NCBI RefSeq assembly: GCF_000759535.1
Contig: NZ_CP009455.1
Coordinates: 1,116,001-1,180,000 of the forward strand
Length of the DNA: 64,000 bases
Origin: Pseudomonas cremoricolorata
GTDB lineage: Bacteria > Pseudomonadota > Gammaproteobacteria > Pseudomonadales > Pseudomonadaceae
Reading direction: 5' to 3'
Made by a program: the position numbers and the translations under genes. Below the pieces are notes generated by a model, which saw only the letters and a program-made list of their open reading frames with translations, was not told where the DNA came from and ran no database searches. Shown piece by piece: positions 1-11,211 of the stretch; positions within the stretch are counted from its first letter, which is position 1, and every line of letters starts with the position of its first letter.

Positions 1-100
1 CGTGTCGATCAACAGCTTCACCGAAACCGTGCTGCGCACCACCGAGCGCGGCGAGATCATGCGATGGACAGCCAAACCCGGACGCAGGCCGACCCTGTGA
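1..100 (+). CDS. tssF: Type VI secretion baseplate subunit TssF (C-terminal end only)
   Basis: An open frame enters from the left edge (codons in phase from base 2) and stops at TGA 98-100. The visible 32 residues contain ETVLRTTERGEIMRW followed by a short Arg/Pro tail, which resembles the end of TssF. TssF is the baseplate wedge protein that pairs with TssG. The next gene, tssG, starts inside this frame at base 64, giving a 37-base overlap typical of co-translated tssF-tssG. Only the tail is seen, so the call rests on this motif and on the tssG-clpV context. Confidence 0.75.
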   Translation, partial: VSINSFTETVLRTTERGEIMRWTAKPGRRPTL

Positions 101-1110
101 ACATCCTCGAGGCGATGCAGGCCGAGCCCTGGCAGTACGATTTCTTCCAGGCCCTGCGCCGGCTCGAAGCCGAACACCCAGAACTGCCACGCTTCGGCCA
201 TTCGCTGCGCCTGAGCGATGAACCGGTGCGCCTCGGCCAGCGCCTGGACAGCGCCTTCGCCCCGGCCACCCTGGCCTCGGTGACGCCGGCCGATGAGCAC
301 ACGCCGGCGCGCCTGGAGCAGTTCTTCTTCGGCCTTGGCGGGCCCAACGGGCCGCTACCGCTGCACCTGACCGAATACGCCCGCGAGCGCCAGCGCAACC
401 ACGCCGACGCCACCAGCAAGCGTTTCCTCGATGTCTTCCACCATCGCCTGCTGAGTCTGTTCTACCGGGCCTGGGCCGAAGCGCGGCCAACGGTCAGCCA
501 CGACCGCCCCGGTGACGACTACTGGGCCGGGCGCCTGGCCGCCCTCAGTGGCCGCGGCCAACCGGCCTTGCAAGGCCAGGGGCCGCTGCCCGACACCGCC
601 AAGCTGCACTACTCCGGCCACCTCGCTGCGCAAACCCGCTACCCCGATGGCCTGTGCGGCATTCTCGGCAGTTATTTCGGCGTGCCGGTGAGCCTGGAGG
701 AATACGTCGGGCAATGGCTCGAGCTGCCCGAACGCAGCCAGCTCGGCGTGCGCGCCAACCGCCTGGGCGTGGATACGTGCCTGGGCCGGCATGTATGGGA
801 TCGCCAGCACACGTTCCGCCTGCGCCTGGGCCCGCTCAGTCTCGACCAGTACCACGCACTGCTGCCCGGAGGACAAGCCTTCAGCGAACTGGCCGCCTGG
901 GTCGCCGAGTACCTGGGCCACGAGTTGGACTGGGAGGTGCAACTGATTCTGCGCCGCGAACAGGTGCCGGCCCTGCAACCCGGTGCCGGCCGGCGCCTGG
1001 GCTTCGACACCTGGCTCGGCAGCCCCGAGCACGATGCCAGCGACCTCAAGCTGGCCCACCACTACGCCACGCTGTCCCGCACAGCCTCCAGGAGCCCGGA
1101 CCATGGGTGA
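64..1110 (+). CDS. tssG: Type VI secretion baseplate subunit TssG
   Basis: A protein of 348 aa, the usual TssG length. TssG forms the wedge complex of the T6SS baseplate with TssF and TssK in the cytoplasm. The N-terminus (PWQYDFFQALRRLEA, then HSLRLSDEPVRLGQ) and the FFGLGGPNGPLPLHLTEYA stretch near residue 85-105 are family hallmarks. The ATG lies within the tssF end, and the stop TGA (1108-1110) overlaps the clpV ATG by 8 bases. Tight coupling to both neighbours supports a single operon. Nothing looks damaged. Confidence 0.93.
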   Translation: MDSQTRTQADPVNILEAMQAEPWQYDFFQALRRLEAEHPELPRFGHSLRLSDEPVRLGQRLDSAFAPATLASVTPADEHTPARLEQFFFGLGGPNGPLPLHLTEYARERQRNHADATSKRFLDVFHHRLLSLFYRAWAEARPTVSHDRPGDDYWAGRLAALSGRGQPALQGQGPLPDTAKLHYSGHLAAQTRYPDGLCGILGSYFGVPVSLEEYVGQWLELPERSQLGVRANRLGVDTCLGRHVWDRQHTFRLRLGPLSLDQYHALLPGGQAFSELAAWVAEYLGHELDWEVQLILRREQVPALQPGAGRRLGFDTWLGSPEHDASDLKLAHHYATLSRTASRSPDHG

Positions 1111-3763
1111 AATCAGCCGCGCCGCACTGTTCGGCAAACTCAACAGCCTGGCCTATCAGGCCATCGAAGCCGCCACGGTGTTCTGCAAGCTGCGCGGCAA
1201 TCCCTATGTCGAACTGGCGCACTGGCTGCACCAGCTGCTGCAACTGCCCGACAGCGACCTGCAGCGCATCCTGCGCCAGTTCAACGTCGAGCCGGCGCGC
1301 CTGGCGGCCGACCTCACCGCCGCGCTGGACCGCCTGCCACGCGGCTCGACCTCGATCACCGACCTGTCCTCGCAGGTCGAGGATGCCGTGGAGCGTGGCT
1401 GGGTCTACGGCAGCCTGATGTTCGGCGCAAGCCAGGTGCGCAGCGGCTACCTGCTGGTCGGCATCCTCAAGACCCCGAGCCTGCGCAACGCGCTGCTGGG
1501 GCTGTCGGGCGAGTTCGCCAAGCTGCGCATCGAGGCCTTGAGCGAGCGCTTCGACGAGTACGTCGGTGACTCGCCGGAAAACGCCCTCGGTGCCAGCGAC
1601 GGCTCCAGCGCCGGCGTGCCCGGTGAAGCCAGTGGCGCGGTGGCGCCGGCAGCGCTGGGCAAGCAGGAGGCATTGCAGCGCTTTACCGTCGACCTCACCG
1701 AGCAGGCCCGCAACGGCCAGCTCGACCCCATCGTTGGCCGCGATGACGAGATTCGCCAACTGGTCGACATCCTCATGCGCCGGCGCCAGAACAACCCGAT
1801 CCTCACCGGCGAGGCCGGGGTGGGCAAGACCGCCGTGGTCGAAGGTTTCGCCCTGCGCATCGTCGCCGGTGACGTGCCGCCGGCGCTCAAGGACGTCGAA
1901 CTGCGCAGCCTCGATGTCGGCCTGCTGCAGGCCGGGGCGAGCATGAAAGGCGAATTCGAACAGCGCCTGCGCCAGGTCATCGAAGACGTCCAGGCCTCAC
2001 CGCGGCCGATCATCCTGTTCATCGATGAAGCTCACACCCTGGTCGGTGCCGGCGGCGCCGCGGGCACCGGCGATGCCGCCAACCTGCTCAAGCCCGCCCT
2101 GGCCCGTGGCAGCCTGCGCACAGTAGCCGCCACCACCTGGGCCGAGTACAAGAAGCACATCGAGAAAGACCCGGCCCTGACCCGGCGCTTCCAGGTGGTG
2201 CAGGTGGCCGAGCCCAGCGAAGCCAAGGCCCTGCTGATGATGCGCGGTGTGGCCTCGACCATGGAGCAGCACCACCAGGTACAGATTCTCGATGAAGCGC
2301 TGGAGGCGGCGGTGAAGCTGTCGCACCGCTACATTCCGGCGCGGCAGTTGCCCGACAAGTCGGTGAGCCTGCTCGACACCGCCTGCGCCCGCGTGGCGAT
2401 CAGCCTGCACGCGGTGCCGGCGGAGGTTGACGACAGCCGCCGGCGGATCGAGGCGTTGCAGGTCGAGTTGCAGATCATCGCCCGCGAAGCGGCCATTGGC
2501 GTGGCCATCGGTCAACGTCAGGTGCAGGCCGAGCAGGCCCTGGCCGCCGAGCAGACGCGCCTGGAAACTCTGGAAGCGCGCTGGGCCGAAGAAAAGGCAC
2601 TGGTCAACGAACTGCTCGCTACCCGCGCGCAACTGCGTGAAGGCGGCGCCAGCGTCGATCAGGGCGACAATCCGCTGCGCGCCACCTTGGTCGACCTGCA
2701 AGCGCGCCTGGCCACCGTGCAGGGTGAGACGCCGTTGATCCTGCCCACGGTCGACTACCAGGCGGTGGCCGCAGTGGTGGCCGACTGGACCGGCATCCCG
2801 GTCGGGCGCATGGCACGCAATGAAATCGAAACCGTGCTCAACCTCGACCAGCACCTGGGCAAACGCATCATCGGCCAGGACCATGCCTTGCAGATGATCG
2901 CCAAACGCATCCAGACCTCGCGCGCCGGCCTCGACAACCCGAACAAGCCGGTTGGCGTGTTCATGCTCGCCGGCACCTCCGGGGTGGGCAAGACCGAAAC
3001 CGCCCTGGCCCTGGCCGAGGCGCTGTATGGCGGTGAGCAGAACCTCATCACCATCAACATGAGCGAGTTCCAGGAAGCCCACACCGTGTCGACCCTCAAG
3101 GGCGCGCCGCCGGGCTATGTCGGCTATGGCGAAGGCGGTGTCCTGACCGAAGCCGTGCGCCGCCGCCCCTACAGCGTGGTGCTGCTCGACGAGGTGGAAA
3201 AGGCCCACCCGGACGTACACGAAATCTTCTTCCAGGTGTTCGACAAAGGGGTGATGGAAGACGGCGAAGGGCGCCAGATCGATTTTCGCAACACGCTGAT
3301 TTTGCTGACCACCAACGCCGGCACCGACCTGCTTGCAGGCCTGTGCCAAGACGCCAGCGCGCTGCCGTCACCCGAAGCGGTCGCCACGCAGTTGCGCGGT
3401 CCGCTGCTGGAGATTTTCCCCCCGGCCCTGCTCGGACGCCTGGTGACCATCCCCTACTACCCGCTCAGTGACGCCATGCTCAAGGCCATCACGCGCTTGC
3501 AGCTCGAACGCATCCGCCGCCGCGTCGAGCACACGCACAGGGTCGGCTTCAGCTATGACGATGCGGTGGTGGACCTGATCGTCTCGCGCTGCACGCAAAG
3601 CGAAAGCGGCGGGCGCATGATCGACGCCATTCTCACCAATGGCCTGCTGCCGGACATGAGCCGCGAGTTCCTCACCCGCCTGCTCGAAGGTCGGCCGCTG
3701 GCGAGCGTACACATCAGTCGCCAGCACAACGACCTGCACTACGCCTTCGCCACTGCCGACTGA
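1103..3763 (+). CDS. tssH: Type VI secretion ATPase TssH/ClpV
   Basis: An AAA+ disaggregase of 886 aa that extracts and recycles contracted TssB-TssC sheath tubules in the cytoplasm. The N-domain (about residues 1-165) carries the Clp repeats that contact the sheath. The first AAA+ module has Walker A GEAGVGKT at 236-243 and Walker [10 protein letters not shown] near 304. A coiled middle domain follows (about 415-535). The second module has Walker A GTSGVGKT at 624-631 and [13 protein letters not shown]. The frame is open to 983, but ATG 1103 is chosen because AGGAG lies 9 bases upstream (1090-1094) and the protein then begins [14 protein letters not shown] like other ClpV proteins. It differs from ClpB by the short middle domain and its T6SS neighbours. 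Confidence 0.95.
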
Positions 3764-3774
3764 CAGGACCTGCC

Positions 3775-5712
3775 ATGCTGTTCTCGCAACTCACCCGCCT
3801 GGCGCAGATCACCAGCCCGCTGCCACCCAATAGCCTGCTGCTCAGTGAAATGAGCGGCAGTGACGAGCTGGGGCGGCTGTTCGAATACGAGCTGCAGCTG
3901 ACCAGCCAGGATTCGGCCATCGACCTCAACCAACTGCTGGGCAAGCCGATGTGCCTGAGCCTGCAGATGAGCCTGGGCGCGCAGCGCCATTTCCACGGTA
4001 TCGTCGCCCGTTGCAGCCAGTCGGTGGATCGCGGCCAGTTCGCCAGCTACCGGGTAACGCTGCGTCCCTGGCTGTGGCTGCTGACCCGCACCAGCGACTG
4101 CCGGATCTTCCAGAACCAGAGCGCCCCGCAGATCGTCAAGCAGGTGTTTCGCGACCTCGGCTTTTCGGACTTCGAGGAACAGCTCAGCCGCAGTTACCGC
4201 GAGCGCGAATACTGCGTGCAGTACCGCGAGACCAGCTTCGAATTCATCAGCCGGCTGCTCGAAGAAGAAGGCATCTACTACTACTTCCGCCACGAGCAGG
4301 AGCGCCACGTGCTGGTGCTGGCCGACGCCTATGGCGCGCACCAGAGCGTGGCCGGCTATGAGAGCGTGCCGTTCTACCCACCCGACGGCCAGCACCGCGA
4401 GCGCGACCACATCAACGACTGGTACCTGGCGCAAGAGGTGCAGCCCGGCTCGCTGGAACTCAACGATTACGACTTCCAGCGCCCCGGCGCGCGCATCAAC
4501 GTGCGTTCGGCCATGCCGCGTCCGCACCAGGCTGGCGACTACCCGCTGTTCGACTACCCCGGCGAATACCAGCACAGCGAGCACGGCGAGCACTACGCCC
4601 GCACCCGCCTGGAAGCGCTGCAAACCCAGCACGAACGGGTCGAACTCAGTGGCAACGCCCGTGGCCTTGGCAGCGGTCATCTGTTCAGCCTGAGCGGCTT
4701 CACCCGCGCCGACCAGAACCGCGAATACCTGATCGTCGCCGCCCGCTATCACGTGGTGCAGGAGCGTCTGGAAAGCGGCGGCGGCAATACCAGCGCACAG
4801 TTTCACGGCAACCTCAGTTGCATCGACGCGCAGCAGAGCTTCCGTCCGCTGGCCAGCACCCAGCGACCCCTGGTCAAGGGGCCGCAGACCGCCGTGGTAG
4901 TGGGCCCCGCCGGCGAAGAGATCTGGACCGACCAATACGGCCGGGTCAAGGTGCATTTCCACTGGGACCGCCACGACCAGTCCAACGAAAACAGCTCGTG
5001 CTGGATTCGCGTGTCGCAGGCCTGGGCCGGCAAGAACTGGGGTTCGATGCAGGTGCCGCGCATTGGTCAGGAAGTCATCGTCAGCTTCCTCGAAGGCGAC
5101 CCGGACCAGCCGATCATTACCGGTCGGGTGTACAACGCCGAACAGACCGTGCCCTACGACCTGCCCGCCAGCGCCACCCAGAGCGGCATCAAGAGCCGCT
5201 CCAGCAAGGGCGGTTCGCCGGCCAACTTCAACGAAATCCGCATGGAAGACAAAAAGGGCGAAGAGCAGCTCTACGTGCACGCCGAGCGCAACCTCGACAC
5301 CGTGGTCGAGCAGAACGAAACCCTTTCGGTTGGCGCCAACCGCACTCAGTCGGTCGGCCAGATGGAGCAGATCACCATCGGCGCCAGTCGCCTGCGGGCG
5401 GTGCGTTTCGACGATGTGGTGATGGTCGGTGCCAGCAAGTCCGACAGCATCGGCGCCAGCTACCTGCTGGAAGTGGGCAACGTGCTACGCCTGGTGTGCG
5501 GCAAGAGCGTCATCGAGCTCAACGCCAGCGGGCAGATCAACATCAGCTGCGAGCAGTTCAGCTTCCACGCCAGACAGGATGCCGAAATCAACACCGGCGG
5601 TACCCTCGACCTCAACCTGGGCGGCGGCGCGCAGACCTCGGCCGATGGCCAGGGCATTCAGAAAGACATTCAGGACGCGGTCGAGGGCCTGTTCCCCGAC
5701 GCGAACACGTGA
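3775..5712 (+). CDS. vgrG: Type VI secretion spike protein VgrG/TssI
   Basis: A protein of 645 aa that trimerises as the needle tip of the T6SS, carries the PAAR-Rhs effector encoded downstream and is itself exported. The N-terminal gp27-like region (about 1-370) includes FEYELQLTS and FISRLLEEEGIYYYF. The gp5 OB-fold follows (about 385-460), with RVKVHFHWDRH, SCWIRVSQAWAG and GDPDQPIITGRVYN. A beta-helical gp5-like tail (about 485-600) reads VGANRTQSVG and similar repeats. There is no C-terminal effector extension, so toxicity must come from the PAAR-Rhs cargo. It starts 11 bases after clpV with AGGA upstream. Confidence 0.95.
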   Translation: MLFSQLTRLAQITSPLPPNSLLLSEMSGSDELGRLFEYELQLTSQDSAIDLNQLLGKPMCLSLQMSLGAQRHFHGIVARCSQSVDRGQFASYRVTLRPWLWLLTRTSDCRIFQNQSAPQIVKQVFRDLGFSDFEEQLSRSYREREYCVQYRETSFEFISRLLEEEGIYYYFRHEQERHVLVLADAYGAHQSVAGYESVPFYPPDGQHRERDHINDWYLAQEVQPGSLELNDYDFQRPGARINVRSAMPRPHQAGDYPLFDYPGEYQHSEHGEHYARTRLEALQTQHERVELSGNARGLGSGHLFSLSGFTRADQNREYLIVAARYHVVQERLESGGGNTSAQFHGNLSCIDAQQSFRPLASTQRPLVKGPQTAVVVGPAGEEIWTDQYGRVKVHFHWDRHDQSNENSSCWIRVSQAWAGKNWGSMQVPRIGQEVIVSFLEGDPDQPIITGRVYNAEQTVPYDLPASATQSGIKSRSSKGGSPANFNEIRMEDKKGEEQLYVHAERNLDTVVEQNETLSVGANRTQSVGQMEQITIGASRLRAVRFDDVVMVGASKSDSIGASYLLEVGNVLRLVCGKSVIELNASGQINISCEQFSFHARQDAEINTGGTLDLNLGGGAQTSADGQGIQKDIQDAVEGLFPDANT

Positions 5713-5722
5713 CGAGACCTTC

Positions 5723-6157
5723 ATGACCTACCGCCTCAACGAATTTCGTTTCGCCCTGCCGGATGCGCGGGTCACCGACACCAGCATCAACATCTTGCGC
5801 TTCGACGCGCTGGGCACCTCGCTGATCGTCAGCCGCAGCCTGCTGGCCGAAGGCGAAACCCTGCAGAGCAACTTCGACGGCCAATTGCAGCGCTTGCAGC
5901 AGCAGGTCAAGGACCTGCACTTCGTGCCGGCCAGCGCAGTCAAGGTCGGTGCCGCGCAGGACATCGACGCCATCGAGCTGAGCAGCCAGTTCAGCAAGGG
6001 CCAGGACAAGGTCTACCAGTACCAGCTGGCGTTGCTGCTGCCGGGCACACGCAAGATGTTCGCGCTCAGCTATGTCAAGCCGCAGCCCTTGGGCGCGGCC
6101 GAGGCTGCGCACTGGGCCCAGCTCAAGCAATCGCTCGACTTCGACAACCTCGGCTGA
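5723..6157 (+). CDS. DUF1795/DcrB-like T6SS effector chaperone (Eag type)
   Basis: A small protein of 144 aa starting MTYRLNEFRFALPD, with a DcrB/DUF1795 pattern (TDTSINILRF, SLIVSRSLL, QLQRLQQQVKDL). In T6SS loci, DUF1795 proteins are Eag chaperones that bind the prePAAR transmembrane helices of PAAR-Rhs effectors and deliver them to VgrG. The position fits exactly: 10 bases after vgrG and 12 bases before a prePAAR-Rhs gene. The frame is open upstream to 5429, but ATG 5723 follows the vgrG stop and gives the family length. No signal peptide is visible, consistent with a cytoplasmic chaperone. Family assignment is by eye; the Eag role is inferred from context. Confidence 0.85.
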   Translation: MTYRLNEFRFALPDARVTDTSINILRFDALGTSLIVSRSLLAEGETLQSNFDGQLQRLQQQVKDLHFVPASAVKVGAAQDIDAIELSSQFSKGQDKVYQYQLALLLPGTRKMFALSYVKPQPLGAAEAAHWAQLKQSLDFDNLG

Positions 6158-6169
6158 CCGGACCCGGCG

Positions 6170-9100
6170 ATGTCTGACGCATTCTGGGCCGCCCGCGAAG
6201 GCGATGCGCTGCTGCACACCTCGATGCTGGCCGACATCGTCGGCGGCGTGCTGGAGGTGGCTGCCACCGTGGCCATCGGCGCGCTGGCCACCGCCGCGGT
6301 GGCGGCGGCCTTCGGCATCACCGTGGCCACGGGCGGGCTGGGCTGCTTCGTGCTCGGCGCCGCGGTCGGCCTGGTGGTCGGCGTGGCGATGGCCAAGACC
6401 GGCGCCGACACCGGGCTCAGTCGATTATGCGAGGGCATCGGCAATGCCCTCTCGCCGCCCACCGTGCAGGCCACCATCGCCAGCGGCTCCAGCGACACCC
6501 ACATCAACGGCAAGCCCGCCGCCCGCGCCGCCGGTATCGTGCTGGCGCCCCTGACGCCGCTGGAGGCAGAACAGGCCGCCGCCGACGCCCAGGCCGAGGA
6601 ACAAACCTTCCTCGACATGGCCAAGGGCTTCTTCTCGCAGATGTGGCGCCCGACCGTCGCCAGCCCCGCGCCGAATACCCAGGAAGCCAACGACGACAAG
6701 GTTCTGTGCAGCAAGCACCCGGCCATGCCGCCGCAGTACCTGGCCGAAGGCTCGAGCAAGGTCATGATCAACGGCCACCCCGCCGTGCGCAGCGGCGACC
6801 GCAGCACCTGCGAGGCGGTGGTGGTCGATGGTGGCGAGGTGTCGAGCGACGTACGCATCGGCGGCGAGCCGATCGTGGTACGTGAGATTCGCAGCGGCAA
6901 GACGCCGGGCATCGGTTTGGCGATTTCGGCGTTGATGCTGCTGCGCGGGCGTGGTGGCAAGTTCTACAGCAAGCTGGGCTGCATGCTGCTGGGCGGCGCC
7001 ACCAGCTACGCCACCAGTGCCGTGACCGGCGCGCTGGTTCGCGCCACCAGCGCCTCACCGAACCCGGTGCATGCCGCCACCGGGGCCAAGGTGCTGTGCG
7101 GCGAGGACGACCTCGACTTCAGCGTGCAGGCAATGCTGGCCATCGACTGGCAGCGTTTCTACAGCAGCCGAGACGAGCGCCGACACACGTTGTTCGGGCC
7201 GGGCTGGAGCACGGCTTTCGAGGTCAGTGTGAGTCTCGTTGCAGACGCCGACGGCAGCGAACGGCTGTGGCTCTACGACGAACAGGCGCGGGCCGTGGAC
7301 ATGGGCAACATCGCCCCGGGCGAGGCAGTGTTCAGCGTCGGCGAAGGCCTGAGCATTCGCCGCGCAGCCAACGGCGAACTGCTCAGCGAGAGCCGTGAGG
7401 GCCAGTACCGGCTGTTCCAGCCCACGCCAGGACGTCCCGAGCACCTGCGCCTGAGCCAGCTGGGCGATCGCAACGACAACCGCATCTACCTGGACTACGA
7501 CGCCCAAGGCCGCCTCAGCCAATTGCGCGACACCTTCGACAGCGTCTGCCTGCACCTGCACTACAACGAGCACTGGCCGCAGCGCGTCAGCCATATCGAG
7601 CAGCGCGATGCCGAGGGCCACAACGCAGTGCGCGCGCACTATCACTACGATGCCCGCGGCCTGCTGGTCGAGGTTCGTGACGGCCAGCAGCGCTTGCTGC
7701 GCAGCTTTGCCTACGACGCCGCCGAACGCCTGTGCCAGCACCAGACCCGCAGCGGCCTGCGCTGCTTCTACGAGTGGGCCGAGATCGGCGACGCTGCGCG
7801 GGTGATACGGCACTGGACCGATGCCGGCGACAGCTACCAGTTCGACTACGACCTCGAAGCCGGCATCACCCGCGTCACCGACAGCCTGCAACGGGTCAAC
7901 CTGCATGCCTGGAACGCGCAGTTGCAGATCACCCGGCACAGCAATCCGCTGGGCCAGACATGGCAGTTCGAGTGGGATGACGAACGCCAACTGCTCGGCG
8001 CCACCGACCCTGCCGGTGGCCAGTGGCGCTTTCTCTACGATGCCTCGGGCAACCTGGTGGAAACGCTCGACCCGCTGGGCCGACGGGAATCCACCACCTG
8101 GCTCGAACACTGGTCGCTACCGACGGTGCAGACCGATGCCGCCGGGCAGCGCTGGCAGTACCGCTACGACCCACGCGGCAACTGCATCAGCGAGACCGAT
8201 CCGCTGGGCGGCATCACCCGCTACCGCTACGACGCTCACGGTTGTCCGTGCGAGATCATCGATGCCGCCGGCACCCGCCGCACCCTGCACTGGAGCCTGC
8301 GCGGCGTGCTGCTGCGCCAGACCGATTGCACCGACGCCGTCACCCGGTTGAGCTACGACGCCCACGGCCACCTGCGCAGCCTGAGCAACGCTCTGGGCGA
8401 GGTCACCGACTACCAGCACGACGTCGATGGCCGTTTGCTGCAAGTGACCCAGCCCGACGGGCGCATCGAGCAGTACCGCTACGACGAGCGCGGCTTGCTG
8501 GTGGGCTACCTCGACCCGGCCGGGCATGTCACCGAGCTGGGCTACAACAGTCGCGGTCAGCTGACCACCCGGCGCGACGCCTTTGGCCGCAGCGTCAACT
8601 ACCTGCACGACCGCTACGGGCGGCTGACCGGCATGCGCAATGCCAACGGTGAACTGCACAGTTTCACCTGGGACGCGGCCGACCGGCTGGTGGCCGAGTG
8701 CAACCTCGACGGCAGCACCCGCCACTATCGCTACGATGCCGGCGATCACCTCTGCGAGGTGCAGTTCGTGCCCACCGCAGGCAGTGACGAAGCGCCGATC
8801 GTGCATCGGATGCAGCACGATGCCGTCGGCCGCCTGCTGACCCGCACCACCCGCGATGGATGCACCCGCTACCGCTACGACGCGGTCGATCAGTTGCTGG
8901 ACATGACCTTCGAGGGGGTCGACGGCAGTAGTCAGTCGTTGGGCTTCGCCTACGACGCCCTCGGCCAATTGCTCGAAGAACGCAGCGCCAGCGGCAGCCT
9001 GCGCCATGAATACGACCCGCTCGGCAACCTGACCCGCACCCGTGTGGCCGATGGCCGTTGGATCAATCGCCTGTACTACGGCAGTGGCCACCTGCACCAG

Positions 9101-10543
9101 GTCAACGTCGACGGCCGGCTGGTCAGCGACTTCGAGCGCGACCGCCTGCATCGCGAAGTGCAGCGCAGCCAAGGGCAGTTGCTGACCCGCAGCGAATACG
9201 ACCGTGCCGGGCACCTGCGTGCGCGACTGAGGCGCCCGGCGAGCCAGGCGCAACACGTGCCCGCCAGCGATCAACTGCGCTTTGCCTACGACCTGCTCGA
9301 CCACCTCGCCAGCCGCTATGTGCAGCGCCCCGACCTGCAGGGCTGGCAGAGCTTCAACCACGACGCCAGCGGACGTATCGCCGCCGTCGATGCGCCCAGC
9401 CAGGGCCTGCATGAGCAGTTCCACTACGACCCGGCCGGCAACTTGCTCGATCCACACCCGCCTGGCGCCGGGCCGGTCAAGCATGACCGGCTGCTGACCT
9501 TCGAAGACAAGCGCTATGCCTACGACGGATTTGGGCGGCTCAAGGAAAAGCGCAGCCGCCGCCATGGCACGCAACGCTTCGTGTATGACGCCGAACACCG
9601 CCTGATCGAAGTGCACACCCTGCAGCCCGGACGCGAGCGGGTCCTGCACATGCATTACGACCCGATGGGACGGCGCATTGGCAAACGCGAGACCACCCTC
9701 GGCGGTGTGCCGCTGGGGCAGACCGAGTTCACCTGGGATGGCCTGCGCCTGAGCGGCGAGCGCCGCGATGGCCGGCAGACGTTGTACCTGTACCTGGATG
9801 ACGGCCACGAGCCACTGGCGCGCATCGACGGTGAAGGCGACTACCAGCACCTGCGCCACTACCACAACGACCTCAACGGCCTGCCTGAACAACTCAGCGA
9901 CGACAACGGTGAGCTGTGCTGGAGTGCGCGTTACTCGACCTGGGGCCAGACCCGCCAGGAATACGCCAGCAGCGACTTCGCCGAACAGCAGAACCTGCGC
10001 TTCCAGGGCCAGTACCTGGACCGCGAGAGCGGCCTGCACTACAACCTGTTCCGCTTCTACGACCCGGACATCGGACGCTTCACCCAGCCTGATCCGATCG
10101 GTATATCGGGCGGTCTGAATCACTATGCGTATGCGCCGAATCCCTTTACCTGGATCGATCCGTGGGGGTTATTGAATGAAGGTGAGGTCGCAGGCTACGG
10201 CGCCGAGGTGCACAAGAACGATGGCCGCGAGGCCCACGAAGTGGTGCGCAACAAATTCCTCCAGGACAAAGGCATCGCCAGCAATGGCCAGCGCCTGCGT
10301 GGCAACCCGTCCATCGCCCTGAGCCCAACCAACCACCGCGCCGTGCACCGCGAGGAACGGCGGCTGCGTAAACAGCTAGGTCTGAAAGGCAATCAGATGC
10401 TGCGCAGCGGCCGCCTGGAGATCAAGCTGATGTCCAAGGCAATCTACAACTCCATGGTGGTGAAGGGCGAGATGACCATTCAACAACTGCGAACCGCACG
10501 GCGCTATGCCAAGTCGTTCGCCAAGAGCAAGGGATGTTACTGA
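6170..10543 (+). CDS. rhs: PrePAAR-PAAR-Rhs type VI effector with C-terminal toxin
   Basis: A polymorphic toxin of 1457 aa. The N-terminus has the prePAAR motif AAREGDALLH (residues 7-16) and hydrophobic helices at about 22-85. PAAR-type sequence follows (about 95-245; THINGKPAARAAG, KVMINGHPAVRSGD), then a second hydrophobic stretch (about 247-290). PVHAATGAKV near 302 opens the Rhs shell, which has dozens of YD repeats (YRYDA, YDPLG). The shell ends with GRFTQPDPIGISGGLNHYAY and DPWGLL, with the final Asp at about residue 1330. The last ~120 residues are the variable toxin, containing GREAHEVVRN and ALSPTNHRAVH, which resembles His-metal (HNH/EndoVII-like) nucleases. Neighbours are the chaperone (12 bases upstream) and the candidate immunity gene immediately downstream. 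The enzymatic activity is inferred. Confidence 0.92.
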   Translation: MSDAFWAAREGDALLHTSMLADIVGGVLEVAATVAIGALATAAVAAAFGITVATGGLGCFVLGAAVGLVVGVAMAKTGADTGLSRLCEGIGNALSPPTVQATIASGSSDTHINGKPAARAAGIVLAPLTPLEAEQAAADAQAEEQTFLDMAKGFFSQMWRPTVASPAPNTQEANDDKVLCSKHPAMPPQYLAEGSSKVMINGHPAVRSGDRSTCEAVVVDGGEVSSDVRIGGEPIVVREIRSGKTPGIGLAISALMLLRGRGGKFYSKLGCMLLGGATSYATSAVTGALVRATSASPNPVHAATGAKVLCGEDDLDFSVQAMLAIDWQRFYSSRDERRHTLFGPGWSTAFEVSVSLVADADGSERLWLYDEQARAVDMGNIAPGEAVFSVGEGLSIRRAANGELLSESREGQYRLFQPTPGRPEHLRLSQLGDRNDNRIYLDYDAQGRLSQLRDTFDSVCLHLHYNEHWPQRVSHIEQRDAEGHNAVRAHYHYDARGLLVEVRDGQQRLLRSFAYDAAERLCQHQTRSGLRCFYEWAEIGDAARVIRHWTDAGDSYQFDYDLEAGITRVTDSLQRVNLHAWNAQLQITRHSNPLGQTWQFEWDDERQLLGATDPAGGQWRFLYDASGNLVETLDPLGRRESTTWLEHWSLPTVQTDAAGQRWQYRYDPRGNCISETDPLGGITRYRYDAHGCPCEIIDAAGTRRTLHWSLRGVLLRQTDCTDAVTRLSYDAHGHLRSLSNALGEVTDYQHDVDGRLLQVTQPDGRIEQYRYDERGLLVGYLDPAGHVTELGYNSRGQLTTRRDAFGRSVNYLHDRYGRLTGMRNANGELHSFTWDAADRLVAECNLDGSTRHYRYDAGDHLCEVQFVPTAGSDEAPIVHRMQHDAVGRLLTRTTRDGCTRYRYDAVDQLLDMTFEGVDGSSQSLGFAYDALGQLLEERSASGSLRHEYDPLGNLTRTRVADGRWINRLYYGSGHLHQVNVDGRLVSDFERDRLHREVQRSQGQLLTRSEYDRAGHLRARLRRPASQAQHVPASDQLRFAYDLLDHLASRYVQRPDLQGWQSFNHDASGRIAAVDAPSQGLHEQFHYDPAGNLLDPHPPGAGPVKHDRLLTFEDKRYAYDGFGRLKEKRSRRHGTQRFVYDAEHRLIEVHTLQPGRERVLHMHYDPMGRRIGKRETTLGGVPLGQTEFTWDGLRLSGERRDGRQTLYLYLDDGHEPLARIDGEGDYQHLRHYHNDLNGLPEQLSDDNGELCWSARYSTWGQTRQEYASSDFAEQQNLRFQGQYLDRESGLHYNLFRFYDPDIGRFTQPDPIGISGGLNHYAYAPNPFTWIDPWGLLNEGEVAGYGAEVHKNDGREAHEVVRNKFLQDKGIASNGQRLRGNPSIALSPTNHRAVHREERRLRKQLGLKGNQMLRSGRLEIKLMSKAIYNSMVVKGEMTIQQLRTARRYAKSFAKSKGCY

Positions 10544-10545
10544 CC

Positions 10546-11211
10546 ATGAGCTCGAACAAGATCGTGTTTTCCGACCAGGACGCAGGGCTCGGCCAGGTCG
10601 GCGGCGGGGCTTTTTTGCCCGATATGGCGCTGTGGCCACGGGCCCCGGATTCCGGCGAACTGCTAACCCCATTGATGACCCTTACCGAGCGTTTCCTGCC
10701 GGTGACCTTCATCCCCGAGGGCATGGCGCTGACCGTGTTCATCGCAGTCAAGCAACGCGACGGTGAGTTCAACGAAGCGACCCAACGCCGCTACACCGTC
10801 AATCAGCAAAGCGAGCTGGAAACCGTGCGCAACGCAGGTTACGCCCGGGTCCTGCTGCACCGCCTGAGCGACCAGCCCCTGTCGCCGACGCCGGGCACGC
10901 TGCTGCTGCCAAGCGCGTTCATCCACTTTCAGGCGATGAGCGACGAAGAGCTCGAGCAGGAGCTGGAAGATGACGACAACGGGCTGGAAGTGAGCAAACC
11001 GGTCGGTCGGCCGTCGTGGCTGCAAGACCCGATCTACGAGCCGAACCGTTATCTGTTTCTGCTGCAATTGAGGGACTACGACATCGCCCAATGGAGCCCC
11101 GAGCATGAGGGCCTGCTCGCAGAAGGGATCGGCTACGTCTACGTCGACCGACAGGCGCGGCGCGGCAAGGAGGGGGATGAAGGGGGATACTTCTTCCTTC
11201 AGTCCACCTGA
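10546..11211 (+). CDS. Putative immunity protein for the Rhs toxin (DUF1963/YwqG-like)
   Basis: A predicted cytoplasmic, acidic protein of 221 aa with no signal peptide or membrane segment. The FLPDMALWP start region, GRPSWLQDPIY, RYLFLLQL and a C-terminal GGYFFLQ resemble DUF1963/YwqG-type proteins, a fold that recurs among polymorphic-toxin immunity proteins. An Asp/Glu-rich run sits near residues 135-150 and could mimic nucleic acid to block a nuclease active site; that is speculative. ATG 10546 lies just past the rhs stop. An alternative in-frame ATG at 10534 would overlap rhs by 10 bases but has poorer ribosome-binding spacing. Position directly after a variable Rhs tip is the main reason for the immunity call. 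Confidence 0.7.
   Translation: MSSNKIVFSDQDAGLGQVGGGAFLPDMALWPRAPDSGELLTPLMTLTERFLPVTFIPEGMALTVFIAVKQRDGEFNEATQRRYTVNQQSELETVRNAGYARVLLHRLSDQPLSPTPGTLLLPSAFIHFQAMSDEELEQELEDDDNGLEVSKPVGRPSWLQDPIYEPNRYLFLLQLRDYDIAQWSPEHEGLLAEGIGYVYVDRQARRGKEGDEGGYFFLQST

Follow-up and report, generated by a model that had tools for sequence, protein, structure and literature searches.

A probable type VI Rhs nuclease effector of Pseudomonas cremoricolorata with a His-Glu signature and a DUF1963-type immunity partner

Introduction

The window analyzed here is a stretch of 64,000 nucleotides (contig NZ_CP009455.1, positions 1,116,001 to 1,180,000, forward strand) from a 4.78-Mb single-contig Pseudomonas genome, that of P. 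cremoricolorata. It encodes a PAAR-Rhs effector of a type VI secretion system (T6SS), and the question raised by this locus is what kind of toxin forms the tip of the effector and whether the gene that follows encodes its antidote. An earlier sequence-only reading had claimed that the last ~120 residues fit no nameable family, that two motifs within them show the spacing of His-metal (HNH/EndoVII-like) toxins with His-Glu in place of the usual His-His, and that the adjacent acidic, DUF1963-like gene is the natural immunity partner. From the results below, we consider it likely that the locus encodes a T6SS Rhs DNase with a His-metal (His-Me)-like core and a DUF1963-type immunity protein. The features on which the argument turns are as follows.

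6170..10543, + strand: PAAR-Rhs effector, 1,457 amino acids (PAAR, residues 176-219; DUF6531, 298-376; YD repeats; Rhs_assc_core, 1255-1334)
10172..10540, + strand: toxin tip, residues 1335-1457, a predicted beta-beta-alpha nuclease domain (boundary after the Rhs core; structure model)
10235..10240, + strand: H1356-E1357, end of strand 1, within GREAHEVVRN (63/63 each; strand E22-25 of the model)
10304..10306, + strand: N1379, directly before strand 2 (PSIAL) (67/67)
10334..10357, + strand: H1389, H1393 and E1396, putative active-site helix (67, 65 and 66 of 67; helix 54-70 of the model)
10546..11211, + strand: putative DUF1963/TYPP-type immunity gene, 221 amino acids (homologue downstream at 38/38 tip loci; PF09234 in distant homologues)

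Results

The tip is a swappable module outside the curated families

The conserved DPWGLL motif starts at residue 1330, and Rhs_assc_core stops at residue 1334. In direct hidden Markov model scans, the last ~123 residues matched no Pfam, NCBIfam or PADLOC family above cut-off, and no PDB sequence matched at an E value of <=10. The profile search that the sequence-only reading had proposed thus ended without a family, and its claim of a tip unlike any family it could name was borne out. A search of 38 relatives with the C-terminal part of the Rhs core gave matches in 15 genomes, and 27 of the 30 Rhs loci fetched could be parsed (L116, L127 and L137 could not). Beyond DPxGL, the parsed loci bear other tips, and the window locus alone has the present one (profile E value of 2.9e-42, the next-best score being 0.00098); the L117 tip was assessed by eye and not by profile. 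The tip is a swappable module.

A broad but patchy family shares a His-Glu signature

The contig of the P. cremoricolorata type strain carries a tip 100% identical to that of the window, and eight other Rhs proteins share the tip at 46 to 80% identity. A scan of GTDB contigs gave 15 tip loci, 13 from Pseudomonas and 2 from Bacteroidota (Aquimarina and Zobellia), and tip matches at an E value of <=0.01 were present in 23 of 398 Pseudomonas genomes (14 close, 7 distant, 1 weak and split [G226] and 1 spurious [G096]). A profile that combined near and distant tips found 80 proteins, whose source names include Photorhabdus, Dickeya, Proteus, Vibrio, Zoogloea, Paracidovorax, Neisseria, Roseburia and Cellulophaga. 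The family is nevertheless patchy and, in a class-wide sample, sparse outside Pseudomonas, since only the window's own genome was positive among 369. A match in L046 was dropped as spurious, as it lay in a cysteine-desulfurase-like frame (name recognized by eye). An IMG/VR contig labelled viral (L048) carries a distant tip with a DUF1963-like partner at 3509-5015.

An alignment of 67 rows took in 55 of the 80 profile-found proteins (without P0032 and most fragments) and 11 of the 15 GTDB loci; the conservation counts that follow are biased to conserved stretches, as the sequences were collected partly via shared words. Both H1356 and E1357 were retained in 63/63 members, and N1379, A1383 and H1389 were each retained in 67/67. 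Nearly as constant were E1396 (66/67), H1393 (65/67), R1375 (64/66) and R1360 (61/63), and the residue preceding H1356 was Ala in 58 of 63. Since the His-Glu pair is invariant in 63/63, it is a signature of the family and no quirk of the window genome. The two motifs of the sequence-only reading, GREAHEVVRN and NPSIALSPTNHRAVH, the latter holding N1379, H1389 and H1393, are present, the first with the His-Glu pair. The pattern H[HED]-x(15-30)-N-x(8-10)-H-x3-H occurred in only 5 of 20,000 shuffles of the tip, a figure that is a rough guide because the pattern was set after the sequence had been seen; conservation across relatives is far stronger evidence for the motif than this count.

The tip is predicted to adopt a beta-beta-alpha fold

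A structure model built with the 67 sequences predicted a beta-beta-alpha fold (predicted local distance difference test [pLDDT] of 94.5), in the order strand(HE)-N-strand-helix(HxxxH); an earlier model from 15 close homologues was poor and strandless and was set aside. Foldseek's own ranking gave no usable match to the tip model. When VIA-align was applied to Foldseek's lower-ranked list, the best structural match, among the families present in that list, was a complex containing the DNase effector TseN (PDB 9J9W; 14% identity). The predicted fold, the invariant HE/N/HxxxH set and the 9J9W match are together consistent with the proposal of an HNH/EndoVII-like nuclease, for which structure prediction had been suggested as a check.

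Among the hallmarks of a His-Me finger, the prediction has the beta-beta-alpha topology, an Asn between the strands (N1379) and helix His residues (H1389, and H1393 in 65/67), the latter two being putative metal ligands. A single residue is described as invariant in His-Me nucleases, namely the catalytic His that terminates strand 1, equivalent to the second His of the AHH and SHH effectors (PMC10902643). Strand 1 of the tip ends with H1356-E1357, and its last residue is Glu in 63/63 members. H1356 may serve as the catalytic His from the position before the strand end.

The tip is assigned to none of the named nuclease toxin families compared

The HNH/EndoVII toxin clades comprise AHH, SHH, LHH, WHH, GHH, GHH2, HHH, EHHH, GH-E, DHNNK and others, and the HE/N/HxxxH set is absent from those described in the portion of PMC3482391 consulted. 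The best curated toxin match was Tox-SHH (PF15652), with 10 of 67 members at an E value of <=1 (best, 0.0053, below cut-off) and, in the member inspected, a score of 16 bits versus a cut-off of 22.7. The tip differs from Tox-SHH in that it has no [SG]HH motif and stays below the gathering score. PF15652 was found in 0 of 150 genomes sampled across the phylum, so that Tox-SHH is known here from sub-threshold scan scores only.

Tox-AHH (PF14412) resembles the tip in its [AG]HH, N, H, H residue pattern (PMC3482391) and occurs in 24 of 149 Pseudomonas genomes, several times as an Rhs tip. When the tip family was compared by hhalign with 23 Pseudomonas AHH domains, AHE aligned on HH with a score of 21.4 (maximum of 60 shuffles, 16.1); with longer segments, the score was matched by 1 of 60 shuffles, so that this link is borderline and not robust. 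Unlike Tox-AHH, the family has HE for HH in 63/63 members and no Pfam match, and the 25 listed of 26 families for the 67 tip members do not include AHH. Tox-GH-E (PF14410) is likewise an HNH/EndoVII toxin family, with Glu as a signature residue (PMC3482391), but its pattern is GH, E, N, E; the tip has no Pfam match to it, and its hhalign score, obtained with four sequences only, was within the shuffles (3 of 60 reached it). Colicin-DNase and EHHH gave no hhalign signal against the tip family. A signal for Ntox47 in 4 of 67 members was rejected, since in the member inspected the match precedes the tip. On these comparisons, the tip is best assigned to none of AHH, SHH, GH-E, Colicin-DNase or EHHH.

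If AHE does align with AHH, the tip family would have Glu at the catalytic-His position. Either Glu would then be the base, or H1356 would act from the preceding position at the cost of the preceding metal ligand, because the position before H1356 is mostly Ala.

Two tips recovered in the Rhs survey, those of L111 and L112, carry GHH motifs and match no Pfam or NCBIfam family above cut-off. The L112 tip (GDNLTGHH...SIAM) follows a related Rhs core and gave a weak score with the AHE profile (0.00098; 10.2 bits). L112 may be an HH-bearing bridge to the HE family.

The downstream gene is paired with the tip

The gene adjacent to the effector encodes an acidic protein, as had been claimed; its isoelectric point (pI) is 4.5, versus 10.5 for the tip. 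It has 19 homologues at 52 to 72% identity. The window protein itself has no Pfam match, and a PDB sequence search with the immunity profile gave nothing at an E value of <=10. Three distant homologues, all encoded next to a relative of the tip, were scanned, and all three matched PF09234 (DUF1963) with 33.6, 20.5 and 14.8 bits and E values of 6.6e-8, 7e-4 and 0.038, one above and two below the cut-off of 23 bits, and near and distant groups were joined by hhalign (99% probability; E value of 6.7e-18). These matches support the DUF1963-like label. PF09234 belongs to the TYPP superfamily (YwqG, TSR4 and PDCD2), for which a chaperone-like role, not immunity, has been proposed (PMC4275035). The immunity proteins resemble this superfamily in their distant members, in a GG close to the N terminus and in a conserved Gln; in contrast, the window protein lies below detection and GGxP is not strict. 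Over 15 immunity rows, GG was retained in most but the P of GGxP was not, Q174 was nearly invariant, and the final Q219 was invariant.

In all 38 tip loci, which come from Pseudomonas, Bacteroidota and an IMG/VR contig, the open reading frame (ORF) downstream of the tip matched both immunity profiles, with weakest E values of 0.0016 for the near-group profile and 0.00067 for the distant-group profile. Some of these loci represent one genome reached twice (30 distinct tip strings among the 37 loci with a recognizable motif), and 6 of the 38 ORFs are inside the distant profile by construction, as several near ones are inside the near profile, so that the cross matches are the telling cases. The pairing holds over tips down to ~30% identity and over two phyla; even behind the broken tips of L043 and L045, an immunity ORF starts 386 and 205 bases on. 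These results support the claim of a natural immunity partner, and the next gene very probably encodes the antidote of the tip.

Immunity homologues at an E value of <=0.001 were found in 32 of the 398 Pseudomonas genomes. In 21 of these, there are 24 close genes (E value of <1e-60), with a tip directly upstream in 14 genomes and none in 7; the other 11 genomes have weak matches, with a tip at 1 (G226) of the 9 such loci examined. Conservation of the gene without a toxin partner had been named beforehand as an observation that would refute the sequence-only reading. It does occur, in these 7 of 21 genomes, but this is what orphan immunity genes ordinarily look like, and the pairing still stands. 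Tandem copies are present in three genomes, and in one of the seven (L062) the orphan gene lies behind a different tip with another gene between. Orphan copies in four more of the seven Pseudomonas genomes (L056, L058, L059 and L060, tandem in L056 and L059) lie between the same two neighbor genes, in what looks like one shared chromosomal site. Such orphan and tandem copies are typical of immunity genes that have been retained or collected.

In L079 and L098, a Tox-AHH Rhs tip is followed by another ORF and then by a distant DUF1963-like gene. This arrangement suggests that DUF1963-type proteins sit in immunity arrays beyond the present toxin.

Discussion

A proposed mechanism and its alternatives

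The gene order, tip boundary, homologue set, residue invariance, predicted fold and gene pairing described above are established. For metal binding, the identity of the base among H1356 and E1357, the DNA substrate and direct inhibition by the neighbor, we infer the following. VgrG, the DcrB-type adaptor and the PAAR/Rhs shell would export the effector and inject it into rival bacteria, where the tip would be freed at DPWGLL, the end of the Rhs core; in other Rhs effectors, the tip is released at this point. The basic tip would be a metal nuclease with a beta-beta-alpha fold akin to the His-Me finger, and most likely a DNase built like TseN, in which the helix residues H1389 and H1393 would hold the metal, N1379 would brace the loop, and the strand-1 pair H1356-E1357 would supply a further metal ligand and the general base. 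In the cytoplasm of producers and their kin, the acidic DUF1963/TYPP-type protein would bind and block the tip, so that these cells survive.

Three observations weigh against this scheme: no HNH family reaches cut-off with the tip, the tip family has Glu at the beta-1 end that carries the catalytic His in His-Me nucleases (PMC10902643), and a close homologue of the neighbor occurs without the tip in 7 of 21 genomes. The first two would fit a TseN-fold tip that is no His-Me finger but belongs to a separate DNase class with one catalytic His, the HE/N/HxxxH set being partly structural. The best structural match is indeed a TseN complex, and TseN of Acidovorax citrulli is a proven DNase effector (PMC12574953), called by its authors a new DNase class, with no similar structure in the PDB and with one His, H254, essential among the residues changed. 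We regard this as unlikely, given that strand(HE)-N-strand-helix(HxxxH), with its near-invariant positions, follows the layout of His-Me enzymes and that, among toxin families matching inside the tip, the weak links point to HNH families. TseN differs from the tip in sequence (14% identity and no profile link at an E value of <=10), and it carries a FIX motif and nucleolar signals, whereas the window effector has an Rhs shell; its immunity protein TsiN, an alpha/beta protein with a seven-stranded sheet (PMC12574953), is probably not DUF1963. A His-Me-like nuclease aimed at RNA or at a special DNA structure instead of bulk DNA is improbable, as the T6SS His-Me effectors in the portions consulted of PMC10902643 and PMC13392607 are DNases, and TseN is likewise one (PMC12574953). 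The second of these sources describes the nearest recent T6SS beta-beta-alpha DNase that we found, Tde5 of P. aeruginosa, which is compared here by its description. Like the proposed tip, Tde5 is a beta-beta-alpha-metal DNase, with three essential His residues, and one of its immunity proteins occludes the active site; unlike the window effector, it is a FIX effector and not an Rhs protein, and its immunity proteins are the all-helical, HEAT-like Tdi5a and a second protein, Tdi5b (PMC13392607).

The apparent replacement of the usual general-base His could also mark a degenerate tip, HE being a lost general base in a non-catalytic decoy or cassette remnant, and some distant copies are in fact broken (an in-frame stop in L038 and L043; L045/L047 split). 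That is very hard to credit, however, given that 63/63 members, with source names from Proteobacteria, Bacteroidota and a Firmicute, retain HE and that 38/38 loci retain an immunity-like gene; a dead domain would not be expected to keep both HE and its partner. As for the neighbor, it could be a DUF1963/TYPP chaperone that serves ordinary cell functions and is there by chance, a view that can hold at once with other readings of the tip. The chaperone-like role proposed for TYPP proteins (PMC4275035), the seven genomes in which a close homologue lacks the tip, and the weaker homologues in 11 more of the 398 genomes, with a tip only at G226 among nine loci examined, would agree with it. Chance is quite improbable in view of 38/38 paired loci with tips down to ~30% identity in two phyla, the opposite charges of tip and neighbor, and tandem copies and orphans that resemble poly-immunity. 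We therefore retain the reading of a His-Me-like Rhs DNase with DUF1963-type immunity.

Novelty and meaning

Somewhat short of an even chance, in our judgment, is the broader view that the tip represents a widespread toxin family, so far uncatalogued, whose general-base His is replaced by Glu and whose DNA cutting is Glu or shifted-His based, that this family takes in or borders TseN, and that its partners form a new immunity class of DUF1963/TYPP fold. Boundaries, active-site candidates and a partner can now be given for a toxin family that the curated libraries used here had missed and whose named sources are Pseudomonas, other Proteobacteria, Bacteroidota and at least one Firmicute. Two points can now be tested. 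One is whether a His-Glu pair can take the place of the canonical His in a His-Me nuclease; the other is whether TseN, which its authors presented as a new class of DNase, is in fact related to the His-Me enzymes. The DUF1963/TYPP fold is known elsewhere from proteins of ribosome biogenesis, TSR4 among them, and the present pairing suggests an unreported role for it in toxin immunity. We found no open-license paper joining DUF1963 with Rhs, or YwqG with "immunity protein," in a search that mostly did not extend to subscription papers, so that absence from print is not established; DUF1963 is unmentioned in the first 300,000 of the 357,715 characters of PMC3482391.

Gene order around the effector

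The effector module adjoins a main T6SS cluster, whose VipB gene (genome positions 1111792-1112700) ends ~3.3 kb ahead of the first base of the window. The genes upstream of the effector are as follows.

64..1110, + strand: tssG (T6SS baseplate), which closes the main T6SS cluster beside the effector module (PF06996, 1.4e-110)
983..3763, + strand: ORF of an AAA+ ATPase of ClpV type (tssH), with AAA, AAA_lid_9, AAA_2 and ClpB_D2-small domains
3775..5712, + strand: vgrG spike protein (Phage_GPD, 3.3e-107; Gp5_trimer_C; Phage_base_V)
5723..6157, + strand: DcrB/DUF1795-type adaptor (PF08786, 3.1e-20), which we take to be an Eag chaperone

The real start of the tssH ORF lies downstream of 983, and its ClpV name is inferred from gene context. 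The locus has all the parts of a PAAR-Rhs T6SS effector, namely vgrG and an adaptor on the 5' side, PAAR, an Rhs/YD shell, Rhs_assc_core, a variable tip and an immunity gene on the 3' side; a prePAAR model matched the 1,457-residue effector weakly (E value of 0.39). The module ends at the immunity gene, because an OprD porin gene and a gene for a PF04371 protein lie beyond it on the opposite strand. The immunity gene starts either at 10534, overlapping the toxin stop (10541-10543), or at 10546. In 16 of the 29 close loci (L009 to L037), the most upstream start is at offset -10, as in the window, and this recurrence suggests that toxin and immunity genes are translationally coupled.

Elsewhere in the same genome, a second Rhs protein with an unrelated tip is encoded at 4106272-4108944, and a second VipB gene at 3391790 indicates that a second T6SS is probably present.

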